In this document: piece by piece, positions 58,543 to 63,647 of the stretch
Layout of the letters: each line of letters starts with the position of its first letter
Position numbering within the stretch: the first letter of the stretch is position 1
Origin: Burkholderiales bacterium
Lineage (GTDB): Bacteria > Pseudomonadota > Gammaproteobacteria > Burkholderiales > Usitatibacteraceae
Direction: 5' to 3'
DNA: 63,647 bases
Assembly (NCBI GenBank): GCA_025360815.1
Contig: JANYBL010000075.1
Coordinates: 1-63,647, forward strand
Notes under the pieces: model-generated
Seen by the model: the letters and a program-made list of their open reading frames with translations, nothing else
The model's database searches: none
What the model was told of the DNA's origin: nothing
Program-made: the position numbers and the translations under genes

Positions 58543-59385
58543 ATGAGCGATTGTCCACATTCTCCCGCATTGCCCGACGGTGCCTATGCCGATTTTCGCG
58601 AATCGATGTCATACGGCGATTATCTCAAACTCGATCAACTATTAAGCGCCCAACAACCATTATCGGGGCAACACAACGAGCTATTGTTCATCATCCAGCA
58701 CCAGACAACTGAGCTATGGATGAAGCTCGCTTTGCACGAGCTGATCGCGGCGCGCAATCAAATCATGGGCGACGAATTGTCGCCGGCCTTCAAAATGCTG
58801 TCGCGGGTTTCGCGCATCATGAATAATTTGATTCAAGCGTGGGATATTTTGGCCACACTCACACCGACGGAATATTCGTCTTTTCGTGAAAGCCTCGCTA
58901 AATCATCGGGCTTCCAATCGCACCAAAATCGCTCATTAGAGTTTATCTTCGGCAACAAAAATGCAGCGATGTTGAAGCCGTTTGAGCACCGCCCCGAAAT
59001 GCATACGCCGCTCAAAGCGCTGCTTGATGCACCATCTATCTACGACGAGGCCAATCGATTGTTGGCGCGGCGCGGCTTCGTATTGGATAGCGTTGCGACG
59101 CAGCGCAATTGGTCGTTGCCGTATGTGGCCAACGATAGCGTTGTCAAAGCGTGGACCACGGTTTACACCAACCCGAAAGCGCACTGGGATTTATACGAAC
59201 TCGCTGAAAAATTAGTCGATCTCGAAGACTATTTTCGCCAATGGCGATTCCGCCATGTCACCACTGTGGAGCGCGTCATTGGCTTTAAGCGCGGCACGGG
59301 CGGCACCGCGGGCGTGGGCTATTTGCGGGAGATGGTGAACGTCAGATTGTTTCCCGAGCTTTGGGATTTACGGACAGGGCTTTGA
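58543..59385 (+). CDS. kynA: Tryptophan 2,3-dioxygenase
   Basis: A heme dioxygenase that opens the indole ring of L-tryptophan to N-formylkynurenine. The 280-residue protein has the active-site His53 ([13 protein letters not shown]), the [13 protein letters not shown] loop, the heme ligand His238 ([14 protein letters not shown]) and the closing [15 protein letters not shown]. The length is typical of bacterial TDO. kynB and kynU are not in the window, so the kynurenine branch is not clustered here. Confidence 0.95.
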
Positions 59386-60052: not shown

Positions 60053-60142
60053 CCGTCCCGCTTGGAAAAATCGATTGTCGTTCGCGAATACGCAAACCTT
60101 GGCTACGACGTTTTTTTCTCATTTGCTAGGTTAGCGAAAAAC

Positions 60143-60519
60143 GGGGTCACGTCTTGCCTTTTGCCATCACGCCATCACGCCCAGCCTGCTGAACAATGCG
60201 ACTAACCCTTGAGATCGATAGCTTCACGTGATTGGCGACCGCCGTCAGGCTATGTTGCCCTTCCTTCACCGCCGCCAGCATGCCCTGTTCCCGGCTAGTG
60301 TGGGCATCAAGGTAATGCTGAATGGATTGGGTGGCCGTGAAGGGCGGCTGTATCCAGCCATGCCGGTGTGGGCGCAATAACTGCTCCAAGCCAACAAATC
60401 GGCTCCCGCCGGTCACCACGCGAGGTGACGTAATACACGGCACCGGGAAATTCAATGCGCAGGAGGCGGTCATGCGCTAACGATAGCGCAGGGGTTGGCA
60501 AAAGGCAAGACGTGACCCC
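60143..60519. mobile_element. RAYT-relic MITE-like element, copy 1
   Basis: A 377-bp element with 24-bp perfect terminal inverted repeats: left 60143-60166 (GGGGTCACGTCTTGCC then TTTTGCCA), right its reverse complement at 60496-60519. The conserved flank extends outward to GAAAAAC on the left and TTTGG-TTCG on the right. Inside is an internally deleted REP-associated tyrosine transposase. No target-site duplication was noticed, as expected for HUH/Y1 transposases. Confidence 0.82.
60147..60473 (-). pseudogene. Internally deleted RAYT transposase (copy 1)
   Basis: On the minus strand one frame keeps the RAYT N-terminus LLRIEFPGAVYYVTSRGDRR and stops soon after EPICW. A second frame, open for 108 residues, keeps the RAYT C-terminal helix-turn-helix (SIQHYLDAHTSREQG, then TAVANHVKLSISRVSRIVQQ, end AKGKT). 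The HUH and Tyr catalytic region between them is missing. The start codon of the N-terminal frame is also lost here. Confidence 0.78.
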
Positions 60520-60573
60520 TTTGGTTCGAACTAATCTAACTGGTCAAAGAAGCGAGGCAAATTGTGTGCGCAA

Positions 60574-61314
60574 TTAAGCGTCTCGATCAGTCGCAAATAC
60601 AGCGTCCCAAACGGATTTCCCATCGCGCGAGGTTAATCTAAATGTTTGGTCGTCAAGCCAGCCATATTCGCCGCGGGACTCGTGCAAAAAATCATAAAAC
60701 GGGACGTCGGTCGTAGCCAAAAGTTTTTTTCCGACTTCGGTTCCGTCTTTGCGCCAAGCGATCGCAAAAATTTCAATACGATCAATATCGTAGTGATAGG
60801 CAACTTGTCCCCTCATCGTGCGCGTACGATTCCATTTCGGCGCTTTCCAAAAACGATGGAGGTCGATTTTTTCTGCGATTACCTGTGAGTACGCTAGCTC
60901 AAAATTAGTGATCGGCCACCCCTTGGCGCGAGCGACACGAAGTAGCCCTTGGTGAAGGACGTCTAACCGCATCTTTTTTCTCGCCTGCTTTTCAAGTTGC
61001 CAGTAAGCTTGATATTCGAATGGTTCTTCGACCAAAACAACATCTCCAGCCCGCTGAATCGAATCCAAAGCAGCTCGTGAACCAACACACGTTACGACGA
61101 CCTTTGCAGTATCAGAGTCCGTAACTTCAGGCAGGCAAAGCAAGTAATGAGTGGAAATCGCATGTCCCTCGAGATTGAAATCCCGTCGTCTCGCGTAATT
61201 CCACTCGCTGTTGGTATCAACATCACGAAACTTAGCCATCAATTTGGCTTCGCGAAATGTGCGTTGCACTACCAGTAACTCAAACGAGTCGTTCACACAA
61301 AATCCTTTATTCAT
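60574..61314 (-). CDS. Uncharacterised cargo protein
   Basis: A 246-residue protein that I do not recognise. There is no signal peptide or membrane helix. It is mixed alpha/beta with many aromatic residues, for example VVVTCVGSRAALDSIQ, FEYQAYWQLEKQARKK, and a C-terminal YDFLHESRGEYGWLDDQTF. The ATG at 61314 was preferred to a GTG three codons upstream. It follows the SUFU-like gene by 18 bp, so both are one transcription unit. Its neighbours suggest a small defence or toxin-immunity module, but nothing in the sequence proves it. Confidence 0.7.
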   Translation of the reverse strand: MNKGFCVNDSFELLVVQRTFREAKLMAKFRDVDTNSEWNYARRRDFNLEGHAISTHYLLCLPEVTDSDTAKVVVTCVGSRAALDSIQRAGDVVLVEEPFEYQAYWQLEKQARKKMRLDVLHQGLLRVARAKGWPITNFELAYSQVIAEKIDLHRFWKAPKWNRTRTMRGQVAYHYDIDRIEIFAIAWRKDGTEVGKKLLATTDVPFYDFLHESRGEYGWLDDQTFRLTSRDGKSVWDAVFATDRDA

Positions 61315-61332
61315 TTTTCGCACTCGCCGATT

Positions 61333-61887
61333 TCAGCCGGTGAAGAAAAAGAGTGACTTGTCTTGTTCGACAAAGTGATCGATTAAGGCATCATGACCAT
61401 GCGTGTTTCGAATGTTCAGCTCCTTCTCGCTCAATGGGATTACGCAAAAACACTTGATTTCCTTTTGTTGAATTCGAAGCAGATCGGGAACATTTTCCAA
61501 ATCGACAGAAGTCGTAGTCTTCGTCAACAGTAGCGCGTGTGGGTAACCTTCGCTGCCGTCTGAATAATTTGGGATGACAACTACTTCTCCCAGAGAAAGC
61601 TGCAGCGAGTGCTCCCGTTCGTAGTCTTCCAAGTTTGCTAGCATCCTCGCGACCGTTAGTTCGTTGGCTTTTGTGACACCCATAAAGACGTGATTTGTAT
61701 ACGTCGGCAAAGTGAATACGACGAATGCCTTTTCCGCGATATTTTCGATTTCCGCATAGGCTGCGCAGAATTTTCCGGAAAAATTTCCGGACAAACTGAA
61801 ATCAAGAGTATCGACCTCATCGCCAACTGGCAATTGGTCAAATAAATCGACCAAAATGGCAGATTGCATTGTAGTCAACTTTGTCAT
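61333..61887 (-). CDS. SUFU-like (suppressor-of-fused) immunity-type protein, tentative
   Basis: A 184-residue protein without signal or membrane helices. The segments FVVFTLPTYTNHVF, VVVIPNYSDGSEGYPHALLLT and the C-terminal CFCVIPLSEKELNIRNTHGHDALIDHF resemble SUFU-domain immunity proteins of polymorphic toxin systems, especially the IPLSEKEL-type strand and following helix. No toxin gene is adjacent. Its start lies only 25 bp from the end of RAYT relic copy 2, so any promoter must lie within that relic or the first few bases. The family call is a visual judgement. Confidence 0.5.
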   Translation of the reverse strand: MTKLTTMQSAILVDLFDQLPVGDEVDTLDFSLSGNFSGKFCAAYAEIENIAEKAFVVFTLPTYTNHVFMGVTKANELTVARMLANLEDYEREHSLQLSLGEVVVIPNYSDGSEGYPHALLLTKTTTSVDLENVPDLLRIQQKEIKCFCVIPLSEKELNIRNTHGHDALIDHFVEQDKSLFFFTG

Positions 61888-61911
61888 GGAAAACGGAGTC
61901 ACATGAAAAAC

Positions 61912-62297
61912 GGGGTCACGTCTTGCCTTTTGCCATCACGCCATCACGCCCCCACGCCCAGCCTGCTGAACAATGCGACCGACCCTTGAGATCGATAGCT
62001 TCACGTGATTGGCGACCGCCGTCAGGCTATGTTGCCCTTCCTTCACCGCCGCCAGCATGCCCTGTTCCTGGCTAGTGTGGGCATCAAGGTAATGCTGAAT
62101 GGATTGGGTGGCCGTGAAGGGCGGCTGTATCCAGCCATGCCGGTGTGGGCGCAATAACGGCTCCAAGCCAACAAATCGGCTCCTGCCGGTCACCACGCGA
62201 GGTGACGTAATACACGGCGCCGGGAAATTCAATGCGCAGAGGGCGGGTCATGCGCTAACGATAGCGCAGGGGTTGGCAAAAGGCGAGACGTGACGCC
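61912..62297. mobile_element. RAYT-relic MITE-like element, copy 2
   Basis: A 386-bp near copy of element 1 in the same orientation. Left terminal repeat 61912-61935 is identical; the right one (62274-62297) has two changes. It has an extra 8 bp near the left end (an added CCCACGCC-like unit). Immediately outside the left end a degenerate second tip (GAAAACGGAGTCAC, 61889-61902) repeats the border. Confidence 0.82.
61936..62251 (-). pseudogene. Internally deleted RAYT transposase (copy 2)
   Basis: This copy keeps the original RAYT start: MTRPLRIEFPGAVYYVTSRG from the ATG at 62251, followed by DRQEPICW and then the same deletion junction as copy 1. The C-terminal helix-turn-helix lies in another frame and ends early (GGVMA) because of the 8-bp insertion. 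Confidence 0.78.
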
Positions 62298-62659
62298 TTT
62301 GGCTTCGTGCGCGTCATCCCTGCCGATTCTAGGTTCGATATATTTTCAGCCGAGCACGAAATCGCCCGCAATTCCATGACTACAAAATCAGGAATTGACG
62401 GTGATGAAAAGTACAGACAACCCCATCCGCTGGTGCCAACACGGCGTTGGCGTCATGCCTGCCGATTCGTTTGACAGCAATGCCGCGCAAACGACGGGCA
62501 TATCCCGCGCCGCTCATGGGCAACGCATTGTTCAACGAATAAATTTGTATAGCCAGCACATTGTGCGTGCCTCGGATTCGCGAGATTTAATAGCGAAGAT
62601 CGCCATCTGGCGAGCTTTCCCAAGCAAAAATAGCCTAAACGCCGCACCAGCGCTAGAGT
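62298..62659. other. Spacer between relic copy 2 and the toxin-antitoxin promoter
   Basis: About 360 bp without a supported gene. A short direct repeat (GCGTCAT, two or three bases, then TGCCGATTC) occurs near 62311 and 62450. Nothing else was recognised. Confidence 0.4.
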
Positions 62660-62704
62660 TTGATTCTTTCGGCATGATATTGTTATTATAACGTTCGTAA
62701 TAAC
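62660..62704 (+). promoter_or_regulatory. Promoter and palindromic operator of the toxin-antitoxin pair
   Basis: TTGATT (62660-62665), an 18-bp spacer and TATTAT (62684-62689). The -10 lies inside a perfect inverted repeat, GTTATTA (62682-62688) and TAATAAC (62698-62704) around 9 bp. This is where an AbrB-type antitoxin would bind to repress its own operon. The antitoxin start is 24 bp further on, after AGGAG. Confidence 0.6.
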
Positions 62705-62727
62705 ATCGTCTTCTCGCAGGAGCCATC

Positions 62728-62952
62728 ATGTCCGCACTCAAGCTCACCCAGATCGGTAATTCCGTCGGCGTCATTCTGCCGAAGGAAGTGCTCGCGCGTC
62801 TCAAGTTGGAAAAGGGCGATACGGTTTATCTCACCGAGAATCCGGATGGGGTGACGCTATCGCCATATCAGCCCGACTTCGCTGAGCAGGTACAGGCCGG
62901 TCGCGATTTCATGCGCGAATACCGGGACACTTTCCGCGCGCTGGCGAAGTAA
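62728..62952 (+). CDS. AbrB/MazE-family antitoxin
   Basis: A 74-residue DNA-binding antitoxin. The SpoVT-AbrB swapped-hairpin fold is evident: KLTQIGNSVGVILPKEVLARLKLEKGDTVYL (about 5-35). The remaining 35 residues (SPYQPDFAEQVQAGRDFMREYRDTF) should form the toxin-neutralising helix. AGGAG precedes the ATG. Three bases separate it from the doc gene. Confidence 0.9.
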   Translation: MSALKLTQIGNSVGVILPKEVLARLKLEKGDTVYLTENPDGVTLSPYQPDFAEQVQAGRDFMREYRDTFRALAK

Positions 62953-62955
62953 ACG

Positions 62956-63339
62956 GTGAAGTGGAACTGGATCGACAAGCGCGTCCTGCTGTTACTGCAT
63001 GACGAAAGCCTGGCGGAGCATGGCGGTGCGAGCGGGATGCGCGATGAAGGTTTGCTCGATTCCGCACTGGCTCGGCCGCTCAATCTCGTCAACTATGGCG
63101 CGCCGGACCTTGCCGATCTCGCTGCTTCCTATGCATTGGGACTGGCGAAGAATCATGCCTTTGTCGATGGCAGCAAGCGCGCCGCTTTTCTCGCGATCGG
63201 TTTGTTTCTCTACATCAACGGCTATCGGCTAACAGCGCCGCAGCCCGATGCCACGGTAATGATGCTCGATGTCGCCGCGGGCAAAATCGACGAAGCCTCC
63301 CTAGCCGCATGGATTCGGCAACATATGAAAAAACGCTAG
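62956..63339 (+). CDS. doc: Doc/Fic-family toxin (death-on-curing)
   Basis: A 127-residue Doc-type toxin; characterised Doc phosphorylates EF-Tu and stops translation. It matches the Doc family: LLLLHDESLAEHGGASGMRDEGLLDSAL, then SYALGLAKNHAFVDGSKRAAFLAIGLFLYINGY. The Fic loop reads HAFVDGSKR, with Ser where HxFxDGNKR has Asn, so activity may be altered. The start is GTG at 62956, three bases after the antitoxin stop. A chromosomal toxin-antitoxin module between relic copies 2 and 3. Confidence 0.9.
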   Translation: MKWNWIDKRVLLLLHDESLAEHGGASGMRDEGLLDSALARPLNLVNYGAPDLADLAASYALGLAKNHAFVDGSKRAAFLAIGLFLYINGYRLTAPQPDATVMMLDVAAGKIDEASLAAWIRQHMKKR

Positions 63340-63357
63340 CGACGTATCAGGAAAAAC

Positions 63358-63647
63358 GGGGTCACGTCTTGCCTTTTGCCATCACGCCCCCACGCCCAGC
63401 CTGCTGAACAATGCGACTAACCCTTGAGATCGATAGCTTCACGTGATTGGCGACCGCCGTCAGGTATGTTGCCCTTCCTTCACCGCCGCCAGCATGCCCT
63501 GTTCCCGGCTAGTGTGAGCATCAAGGTAATGCTGAATGGATTGGGTGGCCGTGAAGGGCGGCAGTATCCAGCCATGCCGGTGTGGGCGGGATAACTGCTC
63601 CAAGCCAACAAATCGGCTCCCGCCGGTCACCACGCGAGGTGACGTAA
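63358..63647. mobile_element. RAYT-relic MITE-like element, copy 3 (cut by window end)
   Basis: A third copy in the same orientation. Its left terminal repeat (63358-63381) is identical to copies 1 and 2. The window ends inside it, so its right end is unseen. A single-base deletion (CAGGTATG instead of CAGGCTATG, about 63463) breaks the helix-turn-helix frame that copies 1 and 2 retain. The internal deletion junction is the same. Confidence 0.8.

Follow-up and report, generated by a model that had tools for sequence, protein, structure and literature searches.

The DNA analysed here, called the window below, comprises 63,647 bases and is the entire contig C84 of a draft genome assembly (G000; 129 contigs, 3.74 Mb). 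It carries three direct copies of an element of about 0.39 kb at positions 60136–60526, 61905–62302 and 63351–63647, a candidate miniature inverted-repeat transposable element (MITE) with remnants of a TIRYT transposase gene on the minus strand between terminal inverted repeats (TIRs). Copies 2 and 3 are 95% and 98% identical to copy 1, which served as the reference. From GGGG to CCCC the two complete copies span 377 bp (copy 1) and 386 bp (copy 2), and copy 3 consists of 297 bases only, as the contig end cuts it. An earlier sequence-only reading had proposed three copies of about 380 bp, and all three are indeed present, the third in truncated form. The last 57 bases of copy 3 recur exactly further upstream in the window; since such a repeat is a usual stop for an assembly, the true copy number may be higher.

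Inverted repeats, gene remnants and edges

The TIRs of copy 1 are located at 60140–60166 (plus strand, gene-3' side) and 60496–60522 (minus strand, gene-5' side). Their arms are 27 nt long, 96% complementary and separated by 329 nt, and the gene-3' arm contains the former stop codon, the TGA of GTGACCCC on the minus strand. In copy 2 the left arm (61909–61935, plus strand) and the right arm (62274–62300, minus strand) are 89% complementary; this copy has an 8-bp insertion near its left end and two mismatches in the 16-mer of its right TIR. Copy 3 shows the left arm (63355–63381, plus strand) and lacks the right TIR as well as the start of the gene remnant. The inverted repeats had been described before as 24 bp long, of which their presence stands but not the length. 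The TIR 16-mer GGGGTCACGTCTTGCC occurs four times exactly in the window, and at up to three mismatches it is found at six sites, five of them at element ends, compared to 0.44 expected sites and to 0 out of 100 shuffles reaching six. The motif GGGGWSAS is present as GGGGTCAC in four of the five TIR ends contained in the window, the right end of copy 2 reading GGCGTCAC. As the ends read GGGGTCACGTCTTGCCTTTTGCCA, carry no GTAG and are by inspection not palindromic, they do not resemble repetitive extragenic palindromes (REPs) or their inverted pairs (REPINs). Common TIRs, a small size, several copies and the lack of a transposase, all observed here, are the features of a MITE. A perfect hairpin with a 7-bp stem and a 4-nt loop lies beside the gene-5' TIR (60473–60490) and also in copy 2, and by eye it is absent from the four intact relatives aligned below. 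Directly before copy 2, at 61888–61902, there is a stray sequence similar to a TIR tip (GGAAAACGGAGTCAC), as if copy 2 had landed beside an older end.

Read on the minus strand, both complete copies show the same order, namely TIR, start of a Y1-transposase gene, the scraps WSSYRAHTG and AWLDTAALHG, a C-terminal helix-turn-helix (HTH) and a stop codon inside the second TIR. In copy 1 the N-terminal remnant (60397–60468, minus strand) shares 83% amino acid identity with residues 4–27 of the intact TIRYT from the relative G095 and the HTH remnant (60183–60332, minus strand) 50% with its residues 237–286, so that both parts expected of a Y1 transposase with a C-terminal HTH can be recognised. The gene start in copy 2 reads RPLRIEFPGAVYYVTSRGDR..EPI. 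We aligned the element to four intact genes, one from the same genus (G012:C29) and three from the same order (G095:C81, G095:C31 and G172:C1), and observed three gaps of 325, 17 and 218–221 nt, between which the two small middle pieces WSSY.AHTG and AWLDTAALHG are retained. The 325-nt gap takes in the HUH motif (NHYH, residues 60–63 of the G095 protein) and tyrosines 113 and 120, one of which is presumably catalytic. The loss of the catalytic core that had been noticed from the sequence is thereby borne out, and the element is a TIRtron derivative and not an autonomous TIRtron (a TIRYT gene with its TIRs). The earlier picture of an N-terminus joined at one point to the HTH proved right in the remnants and in their identical edges, yet three junctions are present instead of a single one.

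For all three junctions the five letters on either side are identical in three out of three copies, which argues that the deletions preceded the multiplication and that the deleted element was multiplied as one unit. The scraps of the N-terminus and of the HTH sit in different reading frames and therefore cannot form a fusion protein. In copy 3 a 1-nt deletion disrupts the HTH frame, and in copy 2 the 8-nt insertion alters it near its end. Given this frame mismatch and damage, the copies are not working genes.

The likeness of the three copies, and of a piece on contig C70 of the same assembly, begins at one common base, GAAAAACGGGG, i.e. (G)AAAAACGGGG, and that of copies 1 and 2 ends just past CCTTTGG, with unrelated DNA outside. 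Copies 1 and 2 differ in 22 of 401 aligned columns and copies 1 and 3 in 11 of 303, counts that take in six flanking bases per side. Common edges at the TIR ends together with unrelated flanks point to the multiplication of a TIR-bounded unit and not to a block duplication. As judged from the three shared junctions and the fixed ends, the proposal that one deletion derivative arose first and was then multiplied is supported.

The copies enclose small genes. Between copies 1 and 2 (60577–61902) two genes are found on the minus strand, one coding for 249 amino acids without a Pfam match and one for a SUFU-family protein (E 1.3e-6). The interval between copies 2 and 3 contains adjacent genes for a MazE-type antitoxin and a Fic/Doc-family protein (62728–63339), whose DNA is 87% identical in the relative G002. 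Two fragments at 62306–62329 and 62445–62468 resemble by eye the start of a cupin-like gene which in G002 lies upstream of the toxin–antitoxin pair; in the window this gene is decayed.

The parent class and its relatives

RAYT-like genes flanked by long TIRs have been named TIRYT and the resulting units TIRtrons, the motif GGGGWSAS being common to some of these TIRs (Di Nocera, De Gregorio and Rocco 2013, PMC3733652). According to PMC6006769, the TnpAREP proteins of subclass 2.1, which have a C-terminal HTH and no REPs detected in their vicinity, are probably equivalent to TIRYT. Since the GGGGTCAC ends and the HTH fit this class and palindromic GTAG-tagged REPs were not seen, the parent is, by its sequence features, assigned to the TIRYT/TIRtron class, a TIR-flanked cousin of the RAYTs and not a REP-flanked RAYT. 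The origin from a RAYT-like gene suggested earlier is thus kept, while the REP association is not. The intact proteins from G095 and G012 exceed the cut-off of PF01797, and with the model NF047646 for REP-associated tyrosine transposases they score 79.5 and 82.6 at a cut-off of 80. In G172 an intact gene lies within inverted ends of the type GGGGTCAGGCCTTGCC spanning 932 bp, and as in the MITE its stop codon falls inside the TIR. A full TIRtron of 1071 bp is present in G039.

Of 150 relatives searched for TIRYT proteins, 24 gave a total of 33 matches, and for 30 of these matches there were loci that could be tested. Applying a rule of at least 13 of 16 positions alike and at most one motif mismatch, we found a paired GGGGWSAS-like TIR at 19 of these 30 loci, with the stop codon inside the TIR at 9 of the 19. 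Eleven loci showed no pair by this rule, among them the G012 gene because its downstream TIR is cut short. In one TIRtron with an open gene (L221, G722:C1 at about 328900–329300) the 5' end with the TIR and the start of the gene recurs 172 bp further on, like a one-ended product.

The exact TIR core GGGGTCASGYCTTG was searched in 15 genomes and is abundant in four of them, G039 (66 cores), G129 (77), G263 (32) and G320 (41), with no match of the reversed control in any of the four. All four belong to one genus (g16) of the same order as the source and all carry open-frame TIRYT genes, so the abundance of cores gives indirect support to the idea of a helper. Inverted pairing was counted for G039 alone, where the complete listing of 66 cores comprises 22 inverted pairs (44 of the 66 cores) plus one TIRtron. 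The starts of the paired cores are 35–93 bp apart (17 of 22 at 35–39 bp) and all pairs are oriented like the gene's own ends. These inverted dimers measure 49–107 bp in G039 and 50–97 bp among the pairs listed for G129. One G129 dimer of 52 bp has the TIR GGGGTCAGGTCTTGCCTTTTGCC, one base off the GGGGTCACGTCTTGCCTTTTGCC of the window, while the TIR of G039 is less similar on the 3' side inside the core (GGGGTCAGGTCTTGAGTTTTGC).

Elements with TIRs of one type can be arranged as a size series, from TIRtrons (932 bp in G172, 1071 bp in G039) to scrap elements of 377–386 bp in the window and of about 205 bp on contig C15 of the source assembly, and further to dimers of 49–107 bp. It is tempting, although for now doubtful, to see the window element as a stage captured on the way to REPIN-like repeats, the graded series reflecting inverted dimers that form as a transposing parent loses internal DNA step by step, with each stage still multiplying.

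Other copies of the element were sought in overlapping genome sets, each including the source genome, with the best two to three candidates per genome scored. No full-length copy outside the source was found among 200 relatives (E ≤ 0.001), where 20 others gave partial matches mostly to the TIR or the TIRYT start, nor among 399 genomes of the order (E ≤ 1e-9) or 369 of the class (E ≤ 1e-12), and 72,556 plasmid records contained no match to the element. An exact 21-base extended TIR is present in five stretches (L061–L065) of a genome-contig collection, in which a motif screen revealed no TIRYT frame by eye; L061 has an IS200-like frame some distance away. Three of them (L061, L062 and L063) show this TIR in other organisms, including clustered TIRs in two contigs of Legionellaceae metagenome-assembled genomes (MAGs). 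In L061, from a proteobacterial MAG, there is a TIR-ended unit of about 200 bp whose interior is by eye not TIRYT-like in six frames. Among viral contigs 17 pattern matches led to no confirmed relative, and four exact TIR matches had no TIRYT motif in the surrounding DNA examined.

Helper genes, further derivatives and competing explanations

Three genes of the source assembly match PF01797. Two are IS200/IS605-type tnpA genes with a tnpB-like frame beside them by eye, and the third (G000:C21:1–775) is TIRYT/RAYT-like but of another type, runs off the contig start and shares 40% amino acid identity with the G095 TIRYT. This C21 gene may be complete in the cell, yet it represents another type. 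About 80 bases past its stop, DNA containing TGACCCC was seen by eye. With the G095 protein as query we found this gene, a piece on C69 without the N-terminal part, a piece on C38 with stops, pieces on C15 and C70 and the MITEs themselves. At up to three mismatches the source genome has 30 TIR-like sites, and the reversed control pattern gave 15; since most of the weak sites were set aside, decayed TIRs may be missed among them. The autonomous partner with the same TIRs that a MITE should have was not encountered in this assembly, and similar-TIR relatives do exist.

At C15:22117–22321 lies a mini-TIRYT of about 205 bp with the ends GGGGCCAGGTCTCGCCTTTTGC and GCAAAAGGCGAGACCTGACTCT, which keeps only the HTH end; its ends differ by 3 mismatches in 22 positions when aligned by eye, an unshifted script count giving 9 of 24. 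Copies with different junctions had been named in the sequence-only reading as a sign of independent decay. The C15 junction does differ from that of the window copies, but the TIRs of this element are of another variant and nothing of the gene except the HTH end is kept, and we take it as a second, independent derivative. Internal deletion would then have occurred at least two times in this lineage, with repeated copies seen for the window type only; a second C15-type copy did not appear in searches with other queries, no DNA search having been made with C15 itself.

The C70 piece (G000:C70:21133–21322) is a truncated element, bringing the total in the assembly to three window copies and one partial. 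We rejected it as an intact fourth MITE, as its likeness ends about 2–5 bases from the third junction and other DNA follows. At C70:21133–21454 (L162:3130–3453) the HTH end of the MITE or TIRYT and the following DNA form one open frame of 107 amino acids, and the contig ends 132 bases past the likeness. The DNA after the piece reads by eye like an IS3-type OrfA, which is unconfirmed as it gave no such Pfam or NCBIfam match. The piece may represent either a MITE that has been cut or what is left of the parent.

Taken together, we consider it likely, with a probability of roughly 0.8, that the element is a MITE derived from a TIRtron with a TIRYT gene between GGGGTCAC-type TIRs, formed once and then multiplied as a unit in trans by a TIRYT. 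Relative to the intact genes the element lacks 325 nt with the HUH and tyrosine region, 17 nt and about 220 nt, both ends and some coding scraps staying behind. A TIRYT made in the same cell would have recognised both TIRs and, by single-strand HUH/Tyr chemistry that leaves no target-site duplication, copied or moved the entire unit of 0.39 kb. The gene for this enzyme may have been lost since, or it may reside in another strain or a genome region outside the data, and the retained scraps would do no protein work.

Several observations weigh against this explanation. Neither the PF01797 nor the G095 protein search revealed an intact TIRYT of the element's subgroup in the 3.74-Mb source assembly, although a helper gene could be missed in a draft of 129 contigs. 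The intact source proposed earlier is therefore missing there. Intact genes with ends of this kind are present in relatives from the genus and the order (G012, G095 and G172), so that the refuting conditions named earlier gave a mixed outcome. That an intact enzyme acts in trans is what we infer. The four aligned genes are just 59.6–64.0% identical to copy 1 over the aligned columns, flanks included. The other 11 of the 15 genomes contain only 0–12 TIR cores each, with one match of the reversed control in one of them (G238), so that abundance is no rule for TIRYT carriers. The copies are few (3–4), three of them lie within 3.5 kb and all have the same orientation. No target-site duplication was found at the copies as proof of insertion; such duplications are not expected for enzymes of the HUH/Tyr (Y1) class. 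A clean empty site was not found either. Ten sister loci were compared, the stretches past the tryptophan dioxygenase gene in G006, G010 and G012 being left out, and none of the six that extend past this gene (G003, G004, G005, G007, G008 and G011) is alike beyond window position 59383. Finally, the likeness to G002 runs through the toxin–antitoxin DNA to 63341, 9 bases short of copy 3, before the sequences differ.

The close spacing and common orientation would also suit copies that stem from a single dead TIRYT remnant whose region was duplicated locally or spread by homologous recombination, without transposition of the small unit. We regard this as unlikely, because the homology ends at the same TIR-end bases with unrelated flanks and a piece with the same left end is found on another contig, C70. 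Very unlikely is an explanation in which the direct copies are sites of homologous recombination bounding exchangeable cassettes, one with the SUFU-like gene and its neighbour and one with the MazE/Fic-type pair. It would account for the small gene set in each interval and for the break in G002 likeness so close to copy 3, but no circular or alternative arrangement was seen, and in the 3,863 bases of G002 that were examined this pair, with the cupin gene upstream by eye, occurs without any such TIR and hence does not need the repeats. Still less probable are three full-length TIRtrons which inserted separately and later converged to one form: the spread of one deletion by gene conversion is conceivable in principle, yet the three junctions agree to the base in all copies, and the source assembly showed no copy with this TIR that is full-length or carries other deletions. 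That the HTH scrap is kept as a small working DNA-binding protein controlling the transposase is hardly credible. In its favour, copy 1 has an open frame of 108 aa and the mini-element on C15 likewise keeps only the HTH end. Against it, the frame is altered or broken in copies 2 and 3 and has a stop near its end in C15, and HTH models give weak scores, the best being PF13542 with E 0.00088, which is below the cut-off.

Comparison with known systems

In the literature on RAYTs and REPINs, TIRYT and IS200/IS605 MITEs we found no TIRYT deletion derivative, which is a weak negative. A multiplied deletion derivative with recognisable gene scraps would be a concrete intermediate for the proposed origin of REPINs or inverted dimers from RAYT-like genes, and it suggests that TIR-type tyrosine transposases can move units longer than a REPIN. 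The element could also serve as a mini-substrate for an activity test of TIRYT, a test suggested in the part of PMC3733652 considered here.

With TIRtrons and TIRYT the window element shares the remnants of a Y1 gene with a C-terminal HTH, TIRs with GGGGWSAS that coincide with the gene ends or lie close to them and TIRs that also occur apart from the gene; it differs in lacking the catalytic core, in keeping gene scraps and in that the unit of 0.38 kb is itself repeated in its deleted form. Within the parts considered of PMC3733652 and PMC6006769, the TIR families consist of single TIRs, dimers or groups of TIRs, and deleted gene copies are not described. REPINs, in the excerpts available from Bertels and Rainey (2011, PMC3116915) and from PMC2817692 (2010), are likewise non-autonomous with two inverted ends and are thought to depend on a RAYT in trans, but their REP ends are short GTAG-tagged palindromes close together, in contrast to the 27-bp TIRs of the window element, which in copy 1 are 329 nt apart with gene remnants within.

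Bacterial MITEs that are internal-deletion derivatives of insertion sequences resemble it in their TIRs, their size of 0.1–0.4 kb, the lack of a transposase, the presence of several copies and the autonomous-type ends. Most MITEs derive from DDE insertion sequences; here the parent would be a Y1 HUH-type transposon with TIRs, and no target-site duplication is seen. The element is a MITE sized between the TIRtron and the inverted TIR dimers, a useful intermediate and of a kind to be expected.

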